From Candidatus Poseidoniaceae archaeon (GTDB taxonomy: Archaea > Thermoplasmatota > Poseidoniia > Poseidoniales > Poseidoniaceae): DNA of 64,000 nucleotides. Made by a program: the position numbers and the translations under genes. Positions 47,583-53,851 of the stretch are shown here, one piece after another (position 1 is the first letter of the stretch; each line of letters opens with the position of its first letter). The notes under the pieces are model-generated. The model worked only from the letters and a program-made list of their open reading frames with translations. It searched no databases and was not told the origin of the DNA. The stretch lies in the NCBI GenBank assembly GCA_938030705.1, contig CALHIR010000001.1, forward strand, positions 124,001 to 188,000, written 5' to 3'.

Positions 47583-49256
47583 CTACTCTTCCTCATTGCT
47601 TTGCATGATGGCAAGGAACTCGTCAATATCCACTACGCCATCGCCGTTTTCGTCGGCATTGTGGAAGTAGGTGCGAACCTCCATCGGTGTCAAGTCCATG
47701 CCCAAGCCTTGCGTGATCGCGGCACGGAATTCGCTCAGTGTCAAGTGGTTCTTTCGACCAATATCCGCCGCCCTAAAGGCCGTGTAGAAGCGTTCTGAAA
47801 CTTCTGGGGTGGCGTTTGAAAACCTTGCTTTGAAGGCGGCGAAGGGTGTGACTCGGGCCTCTTCGAGAACATGCTGTCGCCCGTAGGCTAACCATACAAA
47901 CAATCCCAACCCTATCGCACCAGAGGCGCCGATGAAGGCGTTCGCTCCAATCAACCAAAGCAGAAGAAGGCCCGTTCCAGCCCCGTAGATCTGGGGTAGA
48001 GGATAGAGGGGTGATTTGTACGGGGGATTCCAATCGTGGTGAGGGCCAGCATGCCTCATCACGACTACAGACGCATTGATGGCGACGAAAACCATGATGT
48101 TGAATCCAGAGGCCAGTTCGGCGATGGCATGGACGTCGATGGTCAGGATGGCCGTCGCCATCAGGACACCTGTGATGATGATGGGCCAATGCGGCGTTTC
48201 GTAGGTTGGGTTAAGGTCTTCAAGTTTGGAAGGGAGGAGATTGTCTCTGGCCATTGCAAACAAGAAACGAGAGGCAGAAAGTACGCCGGCAAGGGCCATT
48301 GAGGCCATCGTAACGATGGCCAAAAGTGCAGCGATGACACCAACGGTGCTACCAGCAACATGTTCTGCGAAGACGTAAATTGGGTTCTCAATGGCATGCG
48401 TTCCATCCATGTGCCAGCCTGGTTCCAAAACGGAAACCATGACATAAGCCACACCTGCATACAACCCGGTCGCGACAAGCAACGAGGCGAACATGCCTCG
48501 GGGAATGTTTCGCTCAGGGTCCATCACTTCGCCCCCGATAGCGCCGACCTTGATGGCCCCCGAATAGGCAACGAACACCAAAGCCGCCGCCGTTCCCATC
48601 TCTGGGCTCAGGTAATCGATATTGGTGATTGGCCGAGATAAATCGGCTTCTCCACTCAACAAGGCCATGACGCACAAGAACAGGAGGAAGATAACAGCCG
48701 TGGCGACAATGGGCGTCTGGACCTTCTTGATCTTCTTGACACCGGTGATGTTGATGATGACAATGAATGTCAGGAGAACGAGGGCGATGCTTTTCGGGTT
48801 GACCTCAATATCCATTGCGGTGGTGACCACTTCAAGATATGCTGCGAATCCGATCAAAGCAAACGCAGATTTGAGCATAAACGAGGCAAATAGACCCAGG
48901 CCGCTGATGGTTCCCATAAGCGAACCGTAGGTCCGTTCCATGTAGATGTAAACGCCACCCGATTCTGGCATGGCGCTAGCGAGTTCAGATTTTGAAAACG
49001 CTCCGGTCAACACCACCGAAGCGGCGAGCACAAACGCGAACCACATGCCGTCCCCGGCCACTTCCTGTGCAAAGGCAGGAAGGATGAACAGTCCGGAACC
49101 GAGCATGGATGAAAGCGAGAGGATGACAAGCGTGACCAAGCCGATGGTCCGAGAAAGGGCGGTTTTGAGCTCGCTTGACGAGCCTCCATTGTCTACGGCC
49201 GCTTCCGTGTTTTGCTTCGTATTGTCTCCCACAGGATAACCTCCCGATTCCGGCAT
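47583..49256 (-). CDS. APC-family amino-acid permease with C-terminal EF-hand pair
   Basis: GLVTLVILSLSSMLGSGLFILPAF, AMPESGGVYIYMERTYG; C-terminal canonical EF loop DENGDGVVDIDE (47619-47654) and a degenerate partner. Confidence 0.88.
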   Translation of the reverse strand: MPESGGYPVGDNTKQNTEAAVDNGGSSSELKTALSRTIGLVTLVILSLSSMLGSGLFILPAFAQEVAGDGMWFAFVLAASVVLTGAFSKSELASAMPESGGVYIYMERTYGSLMGTISGLGLFASFMLKSAFALIGFAAYLEVVTTAMDIEVNPKSIALVLLTFIVIINITGVKKIKKVQTPIVATAVIFLLFLCVMALLSGEADLSRPITNIDYLSPEMGTAAALVFVAYSGAIKVGAIGGEVMDPERNIPRGMFASLLVATGLYAGVAYVMVSVLEPGWHMDGTHAIENPIYVFAEHVAGSTVGVIAALLAIVTMASMALAGVLSASRFLFAMARDNLLPSKLEDLNPTYETPHWPIIITGVLMATAILTIDVHAIAELASGFNIMVFVAINASVVVMRHAGPHHDWNPPYKSPLYPLPQIYGAGTGLLLLWLIGANAFIGASGAIGLGLFVWLAYGRQHVLEEARVTPFAAFKARFSNATPEVSERFYTAFRAADIGRKNHLTLSEFRAAITQGLGMDLTPMEVRTYFHNADENGDGVVDIDEFLAIMQSNEEE

Positions 49257-49343: not shown

Positions 49344-50774
49344 TCACTCGCCCATATGGACAATCACCTTCATTTCAACAGCGATGGGGGTAGGAAGGGC
49401 ATCGATCGCCAAGGTTGTTCGGGTTGGTCCAACGGTTCCGAGCGTTTCAGCCCAAACTTCGTTATAGCCTGCGAAATCACGCTTCATGTCCACGAGGAAC
49501 GTGGTCACATCAACCACCTGGTCCATGGTTGCGCCTGCCTCTTCGACAATTCGCCGCACGTTGTTGACCACAGCATGAGTTTGGGCTTTGATGTCATAGT
49601 CCAATGGTTCTCCGTTCTCATCGTGGATGGGCCCACCTGGGATGGCGTTGGTGCCGGGTTGACGGGGTCCGACGCCGGAGAGAAAGAGCATATCGCCGAC
49701 CTTACGGGCATGGGGGTAGGCACCAACCGGCTTAGGTGCGGCGTCGGTGTTTACCGAACCCTCGGCCTCGGTCGGGTCCCAAAGCGCAGGCCCGCTCTCA
49801 CTCACCGATGTTTCGTCTGTTCGTTCAGCTTCTCGACTTTGGTCAATCTCCGCTTCATCAGAACCCTCCAGCACGCCTCGCTCGCCGTGGAAAAATTCCA
49901 CATCGTCCTCATCGTACTCCTTGTCGCCGATCCCGGTTGAGGTGGGGTCGATATGAACCACCGCACCACCAGCGCCGTGAATGGCTTCGTAGGCGAGGAT
50001 GCGACCGGTCAAATCATTACGATTACCGTTCATGGCGGAAAGCCACCACATCGGCTTGAACGCCACCACCTTCTGGACCCGAATTTGGCGGTGGATGGTC
50101 CGGGAGAGTTGACCCACGTCTTCAAGACGGCCTTGCTCGAGGAATTCCAAGATCTTCCTGTTCCATTCGTCGTCCTTGAGCGAGTGGATTTTATCTTCCT
50201 CCGGCTTGATAAAGTCGGTGAACATTCTGTTGGACAAGGACATGGCCGTGATGGCCACAGCACGTCGCCCCTGCGTCTTGATGACGTCCAAACAGGACTT
50301 GGCCAGTACCGTGGTTTCGCTTCGGTTGGCGTACATATTGGAAGAGACGATCACCGCGGGAATGCTGTTGTCCGGGTTGAGCAGGGTCAAGGCCACGACC
50401 GAACCGACATCGATGGGGAACCCTTTGTAATTCACACAGCGACTCTGCAAGCCTCGTTGTTCGTTCGCTTCGTTCCAAGCATGGGCAAAGTCTGCATCGA
50501 TGTTGAACGAGTATGGGATGGAGCCGAGGTCGTGGAAGTCATGGTCCACCATGACCCACTCGGGGTTGGGGTCAGCTTGGATTTGGTGTCCGATGATGGA
50601 GGGCCACGTGGTGGAGTAGATGATGAGCAAATCAGCGTCCAAATCACGAATCGTTTGAGCGGCGTCGTTAAAGGCATCTCGTAGCCGTCGCCATCCGGGG
50701 TTTTGGTCTGGAGCCAACACCGTATGTGGGTGAACGGGCACCACAAACGAAGCCACCACTTCGCCCGAGGTCAT
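49344..50774 (-). CDS. Fusion: LigB-like extradiol dioxygenase non-catalytic subunit (AmnA-like) + RidA-family 2-aminomuconate deaminase-like domain (AmnD-like)
   Basis: N-term VVPVHPHTVLAPDQNPGWRRL / YSTTWPSIIGH / MSLSNRMF; acidic linker; C-term GAYPHARKVGDMLFLSGVGPRQP...VVDVTTFLVDMKRDFAGYNEVWAETLGTVGPTRTTLAI. Confidence 0.82.
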   Translation of the reverse strand: MTSGEVVASFVVPVHPHTVLAPDQNPGWRRLRDAFNDAAQTIRDLDADLLIIYSTTWPSIIGHQIQADPNPEWVMVDHDFHDLGSIPYSFNIDADFAHAWNEANEQRGLQSRCVNYKGFPIDVGSVVALTLLNPDNSIPAVIVSSNMYANRSETTVLAKSCLDVIKTQGRRAVAITAMSLSNRMFTDFIKPEEDKIHSLKDDEWNRKILEFLEQGRLEDVGQLSRTIHRQIRVQKVVAFKPMWWLSAMNGNRNDLTGRILAYEAIHGAGGAVVHIDPTSTGIGDKEYDEDDVEFFHGERGVLEGSDEAEIDQSREAERTDETSVSESGPALWDPTEAEGSVNTDAAPKPVGAYPHARKVGDMLFLSGVGPRQPGTNAIPGGPIHDENGEPLDYDIKAQTHAVVNNVRRIVEEAGATMDQVVDVTTFLVDMKRDFAGYNEVWAETLGTVGPTRTTLAIDALPTPIAVEMKVIVHMGE

Positions 50775-51673
50775 CCCTCGTTCACCTCGTGCGCATAACA
50801 AGGCCATTCAACGACAGCGTTTCCGGTGCCGATGATGGTCCCGTAGCCGTGAAGAATGCCGGGATAATCAGGGACATCGAGGGTGGAAAGCAACCAAGAC
50901 AGGCCGCCACCGTCGCTTTCGGCGATGGCCTGTTCGGTGAATTCGGGCATCTCGTCCAAGATGCGTTGGGCTTGACCTGTGCGCATGTACTCGATCATCC
51001 GCATGTCCCACAAGTGCATGGCATGGCTCGTAATGTGCTCTTTGCTCATGTCTTCGGGTACCTCTGATTCGGTGGTAAAGTGGCGATGGGAGAGGGAATT
51101 GCTGGCGAGGACAACGACCCTTTTTCCACTGGCTTCGATGGCTTTTCGTGTGACTTTGCCAAGTTCAATCATGATTTCTTGCATCACTTCGACCGAATAA
51201 TAGGCCGTGGAACGGTTGCTTGAAATGACCACAAGCGGCTTATCCCAGTCGGGGTTGAACAAGTGGCCCGTGGTGATGGTGCCGTAATCCACACGGAAGT
51301 CTGGGTTCTCCATCATCTTCACCGGAAGGCCGGCCTTGGCTGCTTCATCATGAATCGCTTGCGCCAATTCAACGTCCACGTTCATGTCGTAATGGTAGCG
51401 GAAAAGGTTCGGGAAGATGGGGTCGACCGAGAGGCCTTCAAAATTTGGTAGGCCAAGGAAATGGGTGCCGACATAGGTTTGCCAGTGTGGGGAAAGGAGG
51501 ACGATGGCATCGTAATCGTGTTCGGAAAGGGAAGCACGAAGGCGTTCATACCCCCATCGAAGTTGTTCCCATCCTCCTTCGGCAACGGGTTCGTTTTGGG
51601 GCGGGTTTTCTGCGTAAACAAGATGCGGAGGATGCGGTGCGAGGCACCCGGCGACAATCTGTCCTTTGCCCAT
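50771..51673 (-). CDS. Class III extradiol dioxygenase catalytic subunit, 2-aminophenol 1,6-dioxygenase beta-like (AmnB-like)
   Basis: LAPHPPHLVYAENPPQNEP, LLSPHWQTYVGTHFLGLP, NSLSHRHFTTE; ATGA overlap with the AmnA-like gene. Confidence 0.82.
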   Translation of the reverse strand: MGKGQIVAGCLAPHPPHLVYAENPPQNEPVAEGGWEQLRWGYERLRASLSEHDYDAIVLLSPHWQTYVGTHFLGLPNFEGLSVDPIFPNLFRYHYDMNVDVELAQAIHDEAAKAGLPVKMMENPDFRVDYGTITTGHLFNPDWDKPLVVISSNRSTAYYSVEVMQEIMIELGKVTRKAIEASGKRVVVLASNSLSHRHFTTESEVPEDMSKEHITSHAMHLWDMRMIEYMRTGQAQRILDEMPEFTEQAIAESDGGGLSWLLSTLDVPDYPGILHGYGTIIGTGNAVVEWPCYAHEVNEG

Positions 51674-52257: not shown

Positions 52258-53085
52258 TCACGAGGTGTAGGATTCCTCATCGCTGGGAAAATCACCCGAA
52301 CGCACATCATCGCAATAGCCCTTAATGGCCCCGTCAATCTCTTCGGCGAGGTTGAGGTAGCGGCGAAGAAAACGGGGTGAGAAATCCATGGTTATGCCCA
52401 ACAAATCGTGAAGCACGAGGACTTGACCATCGACATCTGGACCCGCACCGATACCGATGGTTGGAATGGTCAAGGCCGCTGACACACGCTTGGCGAGGTC
52501 TCGAGGAATCTTCTCCAGCACGATGGCAAAGCAACCGGCGGCTTCGAGAACCTTGGCATCGGCGATTAACTTCTCGGCTTCTTCGTCTTCTTTGGCACGA
52601 ACGGAATAGGTCCCAAACTTGTAGATGGACTGCGGGGTAAGCCCGAGATGGCCCATCACGGGAATGCCAGCGGTCAGGATGCGCTCAACGGATTCCACGA
52701 TTTCCGCTCCACCCTCCAACTTCACGGCGTGTCCGCTTGATTCTTTCATGATGCGGATGGCGGATTCAAGGGCCTGACGAGAATTGCCTTGATACGTGCC
52801 AAACGGCATGTCGACCACCAACAGGGCGCGGTCAACCGCTCGCTCAACACACTGGGCGTGGTAGATCATGTGGTCAAGGGTCATCGGCACTGTGGTGGCT
52901 TGGCCCGCCATCACGTTGGAGGCGGAATCGCCCACAAGAATCACATCAACTCCGGCTTGGTCAACAAGCCGAGCCAGTGAGTAATCATAGGCCGTAAGCA
53001 TGGTGATTTTCTCACCAGCACGCTTCATTTCCTGGAGCGTGTGGGTGGTCACCTTCCGTGCCTCGCTGTAGACGGACATAGCCAT
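52258..53085 (-). CDS. panB: 3-methyl-2-oxobutanoate hydroxymethyltransferase
   Basis: [69 protein letters not shown]. Confidence 0.96.
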
Positions 53086-53122
53086 GCCACCGCCCGTCGT
53101 GTTTTCAATTCGTCGCCTTCGT

Positions 53123-53851
53123 TTATTCTGCCTCGTCAACGAAGCCGAAAACATGGGTCTGAAGTTCATGCAATGCCTCGGCGGCACTGGAGCAGGCGAG
53201 GAGTTGTTGGCGTGCTTCGAGGTCGTTCAGGCATAAAGCCGCAATGTTGTAAATCGATGCTCTTTGTTCGTTGATCTGCTCCTCGCAAATGGATTCGACC
53301 CAGCCGTCCAGGACACTGGCATCGACGTTCATGCCTCGTCCAGCCCGATGGACGATGTTGCTGGTCAAGGAACGAAGGTAGGCTTGGTCTTCTTCCCCGA
53401 GTTCACCCACTTCCTCCAAGTAGGAAACTTTGGCCGAGATGTACAATCGTTGGTGGGGGGCGTCGGATGGCAGGTGTTGAAGCAAGGTATCGACATCCGG
53501 TGCCAATCCATCTTCGACCAGGGAGGCCATGGTGGGGTCGGAAAAGGGAGGCAGGGCAGGTTCAATGACCTCTTCAACGAAGAATCGCCGTCCACCCGTG
53601 ATGGTGAGGAAGTGGTTCACGCCTCGCGTTTCGTGATTGAGGATGATGGCCTCGCAACCGTGCCTTCGTGGACCGTCCCATCCGTTGGTCGGTTCAAAGG
53701 GGTCATTCATGACCAGCCCAAACGGACGTTCATCCAAAATGCAGGTGTCGAGCATTTGGCGATAGCGGGGTTCAAAGACGCGGAGTTCCTGATGTTCACC
53801 TGGAAAAAGCACCATGGGCAGGACGAAGAGTGGAAGTGTTTCCTCGTCCAT
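53123..53851 (-). CDS. Stand-alone LON N-terminal (substrate-binding) domain protein
   Basis: [41 protein letters not shown]. Confidence 0.85.

Follow-up and report, generated by a model that had tools for sequence, protein, structure and literature searches.

The best analogue of the protein described here is SCaMC (SLC25A23-25), in which a transporter is joined to a calmodulin-like domain through an amphipathic-helix linker; in the mitochondrial ATP-Mg/Pi carrier, Ca2+ pulls the amphipathic helix off the carrier, letting the carrier work (PMC6283063). The archaeal permease appears to consist of the same three parts (core, predicted helix with conserved aromatic positions, and EF-hand pair), but in the opposite order and with an unrelated fold. 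SCaMC combines a mitochondrial carrier fold with four N-terminal EF hands, whereas the permease core has the APC fold, so that the permease is not a member of the SCaMC family. The two architectures are of independent origin. In its transport core, the permease resembles GkApcT (PDB entries 5oqt and 6f34), a bacterial CAT homologue from the APC superfamily, which shares ∼25% identity with it and has no EF-hand tail. The tail itself is similar to the EF-hand pairs of calmodulin and troponin C in both sequence and predicted fold but comprises a single pair with one competent loop and is fused to a permease. The nearest core relatives found, APC permeases from other Thermoplasmatota and from Halobacteria, also carry a cytosolic domain after the last helix; however, that domain is Usp or PTS_EIIA_2, not an EF-hand pair. 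According to passages in the main text of a 2022 study (PMC9258230), protein modules specific to Poseidoniaceae/Thalassarchaeaceae carry calcium-binding domains, for which a signaling role was suggested; they are similar to the present case in being lineage-specific families of this order with such domains, but these passages name no APC permease or transporter fusion. No report of an APC or SLC7 permease with EF hands was found in the literature searched, mostly outside subscription papers. To our knowledge, intracellular Ca2+ signaling in archaea is barely documented. Poseidoniales, also known as Marine Group II, are very abundant marine archaea; named relatives with 85-90% identity place the genome studied here in this order.

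Architecture of the permease

The window, a 64,000-nucleotide stretch of a Poseidoniaceae genome (contig CALHIR010000001.1, positions 124,001 to 188,000), contains an open reading frame with exact coordinates 47583-49256 on the minus strand, whose product is a 557-residue APC permease with the following features:

47583..49256, minus strand: whole gene, APC permease with a C-terminal EF-hand pair, 557 aa (open reading frame, Pfam, AlphaFold2)
47928..49145, minus strand: 12-helix APC transport core, Pfam match at residues 38-443 (PF13520, Foldseek)
47817..47849, minus strand: linker helix, residues 470-480 (TPFAAFKARFS; conserved TP[WF]xxF[RK]xxF, model helix 472-480)
47601..47807, minus strand: EF-hand pair, residues 484-552 (PF13499, predicted fold, PDB matches)
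47730..47765, minus strand: EF loop 1, residues 498-509, degenerate (DIGRKNHLTLSE; homologue alignment)
47619..47654, minus strand: EF loop 2, residues 535-546, canonical (DENGDGVVDIDE; homologue alignment)

The sequence-only reading had proposed an APC permease with a C-terminal EF-hand pair, its second loop canonical and its first degenerate, and the profile searches and alignments bear this out in full. Pfam recognizes AA_permease_2 (PF13520) at residues 38-443 (E value of 3.1e-39, 135.5 bits against a cut-off of 27) and EF-hand_7 (PF13499) at residues 488-552 (5.7e-13, 49.5 bits against a cut-off of 30), with an additional EF-hand_1 match on loop 2. The last helix of the core extends to approximately residue 466, and the EF-hand pair makes up the last ∼70 residues of the protein. 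Loop 2 is fully canonical, whereas loop 1 lacks an oxygen ligand at position 3 and has a lysine at position 5. In phmmer searches of the PDB, the tail matched troponin C (1e-13) and calmodulin (1e-11); together with the Pfam scores, these matches place it well beyond chance, and a chance EF motif is ruled out by both lines of evidence and by the conservation described below. The same permease-EF fusion recurs in dozens of genomes, which rules out an assembly or frameshift artifact.

As the sequence-only reading had suggested, the structure of the tail was predicted, using AlphaFold2 with an alignment of 40 tailed homologues (mean pLDDT of 83.8, pTM of 0.83). The model shows a confident EF-hand pair made of two helix-loop-helix units (residues 484-497/507-517 and 524-534/544-552, with pLDDT of ∼82-88) that is preceded by a short conserved helix at residues 472-480. 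The linker motif TP[WF]xxF[RK]xxF retains P471 in all 82 tailed homologues, W/F472 in 72, F475 in 59, and F479 in 56 of them; this segment (residues 470-480) is a possible candidate for the intramolecular target of the EF-hand pair.

As judged from the model, Foldseek, and loop charges, the core has the APC fold with 12 helices, and its two termini lie inside. GkApcT is both its best PDB match by sequence (4e-33) and the best Foldseek match of the model (6f34, TM score of 0.83 by target length). Sides were assigned to the loops by assuming for the predicted helices the arrangement that is usual in APC proteins, which puts both ends inside; averaged over 104 homologues, the inside loops contain 19.7 lysine and arginine residues and the outside loops contain 3.4. 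This excess argues that the C-terminal tail is cytosolic, and an extracytoplasmic tail, which would have spoken against the sequence-only reading, is ruled out by the loop charges and the fold. The named APC subfamilies in NCBIfam (TIGR00909, BcaP, and others) all score below their cut-offs, the best at 188.9 bits versus the required 556.8. The protein is best explained as a predicted CAT/ApcT-like amino acid permease of Poseidoniales. As a weaker prediction, it probably transports an amino acid or else a compound of the aromatic amine type that is processed by the LigB-type enzymes encoded next to it, which belong to the following neighborhood:

49344..50807, minus strand: upstream gene, LigB-type extradiol dioxygenase fused to RidA (PF02900, PF01042)
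50771..51673, minus strand: upstream gene, LigB-type extradiol dioxygenase, a conserved neighbor (PF02900, 1.1e-22)
52258..53187, minus strand: PanB, ketopantoate hydroxymethyltransferase, conserved in the neighborhood (PF02548, 1.6e-114)

The LigB-RidA neighbor, or at least its LigB part, is found in 55 of 66 loci from both families of the order, some of these loci being near-duplicates, and PanB comes after the permease in the second family. A tie of this gene cluster to aromatic compounds appears plausible.

Conservation and loss of the tail, and other domains in its place

A homologue of the permease with an E value of 1e-20 or better is encoded in 254 of the 293 genomes of the order. Among the 104 distinct homologous sequences examined, the EF tail is present in 82, which come from both families, and absent in 22, including one (L016) whose contig ends early. 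In the tailed homologues, the Asp at position 1 and Gly at position 6 of loop 2 are invariant (82/82), Asp or Asn occupies position 3 in 80 and position 5 in 78 sequences, and position 12 is Glu in 74, with the remaining 8 having Gln (6), Asp (1), or Thr (1). The strict canonical pattern is matched in 72 of the 82; a close relative, L009, has His at position 5. Thus, loop 2 is a conserved canonical 12-residue Ca2+ loop across the order, a point on which the sequence-only reading had made its proposal depend. Loop 1 is canonical in just 1 of the 82 sequences, yet its NHL[TN]LxEF motif is kept. The core has a dN/dS of 0.109, compared with 0.143 in the EF-hand pair, 0.097 in loop 2, and 0.18 in the linker; these values come from independent pairs and are rough because pS is high in several of them. 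By these estimates, purifying selection acts on the tail about as strongly as on the core.

On the tree of the core, the tail-less copies require five or more state changes, even if the count is restricted to starred branches, and six changes are forced on a wider tree with more such copies. Most tail-less copies retain a TPF stub of the linker, and no tail remnants were found downstream in the 16 tail-less loci searched, which also rules out that these copies are frameshifts. Given the state changes, the stub, and the lack of downstream remnants, the most economical account is one probable gain of the tail, dating to the base of the Poseidoniales clade, followed by at least five losses in which the core was kept. 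The tail is therefore dispensable in some lineages. With this probable history of one gain and repeated losses from a permease that stayed, it looks regulatory rather than part of the transport engine, and the natural losses fit a modulatory role but not that of an essential gate.

In the wider tree, the Poseidoniales clade is set apart from outside relatives with full SH-aLRT support. Among the matches listed from outside the order, alignments end by position 490 and none reach the EF region; in the rest of the class, no match was found in the eight genomes listed. Those outside relatives that were scanned with Pfam mostly carry other C-terminal domains, PTS_EIIA_2 (PF00359) in L152, L154, and L160 and Usp (PF00582) in L156, L202, and L203; the tail of L151 had no domain match. 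The view that the architecture is unusual is thus upheld, and the simplest reading is that this permease branch takes on differing cytosolic C-terminal domains by lineage. The Thermoplasmatota APC permeases with a PTS_EIIA_2-like end comprise L152-L155, L157-L160, and L162-L164, where L152, L154, and L160 were assigned by Pfam and the others by likeness. The viral collection yielded no relative. A plasmid-borne fusion was rejected as well: the plasmid matches listed end at residues 466-516, and the two examined, out of more than 400, both carry Usp.

Possible regulation by calcium

Judging from sequence comparisons and the structural model, the cytosolic tail is likely (with a probability of roughly 0.6) to be a Ca2+-responsive regulatory module of the permease. 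The suggestion of the sequence-only reading, intracellular Ca2+ gating or a Ca2+-dependent partner, is partly supported. Helix capture, as suggested by the analogy with SCaMC, would be its likeliest mode of action, a proposal put forward with less confidence than the regulatory role as such. Ca2+ would bind to loop 2, with the degenerate loop 1 presumably serving as its structural partner, and this binding would open a hydrophobic cleft in the EF-hand pair. The cleft could then take up the linker helix (W/F472, F475, and F479) located just past the last transmembrane helix, and the uptake or release of this helix would reshape the permease in its cytosolic half, thereby changing the transport rate by either activation or inhibition. 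The genome also encodes a homologue of Ca2+/cation exchangers (PF01699), so cytosolic Ca2+ could be controlled.

The EF-hand pair could instead be a constitutive structural or assembly module that is occupied by Ca2+ or Mg2+ and stabilizes the C terminus or an oligomer without any sensing. Such a role would agree with the presence of a single canonical loop, loop 2, with the conservation of its degenerate partner as a structural element, and with the prediction of the EF fold in the absence of ions, but it is unlikely, if far from negligible. Glu rather than Asp at position 12 of EF loops favors Ca2+, and Glu is what 74 of the 82 sequences have; moreover, related permeases carry regulatory-type domains at the same spot, and the tail is dispensable. 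It is rather improbable that the tail recruits a separate partner in a Ca2+-dependent manner, such as a LigB-type enzyme of the cluster, rather than gating the permease: the association of LigB, LigB(-RidA), APC, and PanB genes is indeed conserved in both families, but the tail-less orthologues have the same neighbors, and the cluster can therefore do without the tail. The five or more independent losses might also suggest a decaying or near-neutral decoration with no function. This is the least probable of the alternatives, as the constraint on loop 2 matches that on the core (dN/dS of 0.097 versus 0.109) and positions 1 and 6 of the loop do not vary among 82 homologues from two families.

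Each of the 39 genomes in the relatives search has EF-hand matches, and several other EF-hand proteins are encoded in the same genome as the permease. In an 858-aa NuoL-type subunit of complex I (L008/L166; G000:C4:36419-38992, minus strand), an EF-hand pair is inserted at approximately residues 450-538, within a histidine-rich loop. Matches across this insert were seen in 15 of the 15 genomes of the genus that were searched, one of them cut by a contig end, and the other family has a similar insert in its genus g19 (G030); in the remaining genera, the match is interrupted around this segment and the frame is mostly ∼730-780 aa long. A multi-helix membrane protein (L007/L198; G000:C2, 662-aa frame) has a C-terminal EF-hand pair and a core with no Pfam family that, by eye, is faintly similar to heme-copper oxidase subunit I. 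Its homologues that reach the EF region are encoded in nearly all searched genomes of the window's family and are absent from the other family. The same genome additionally encodes (L002-L006) a protein combining a double zinc ribbon with four EF hands and membrane helices, an EF-hand protein that resembles ZnuA, a small EF-hand pair that stands alone, and an EF-hand pair with a zinc-ribbon-like C-terminal end.

The EF-hand pairs on the NuoL-type subunit and the multi-helix protein hint at a wider use of calcium. A cytosolic Ca2+ signal in Poseidoniales might tune respiration as well as nutrient uptake by way of EF-hand pairs that have been added to different membrane machines, namely the APC permease (across the order), the NuoL-type subunit (in the window's genus), and the multi-helix protein (in the family), but this broader scheme is speculative and, on balance, doubtful. 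For the permease itself, the retention of an EF-hand domain on the inner tail across the order suggests that amino acid uptake in Poseidoniales may be responsive to intracellular calcium. An order-wide permease with a calmodulin-like cytosolic end offers a concrete, testable case for Ca2+ signaling in archaea, with natural controls in the form of orthologues that lack the tail and relatives that have Usp or EIIA domains instead.
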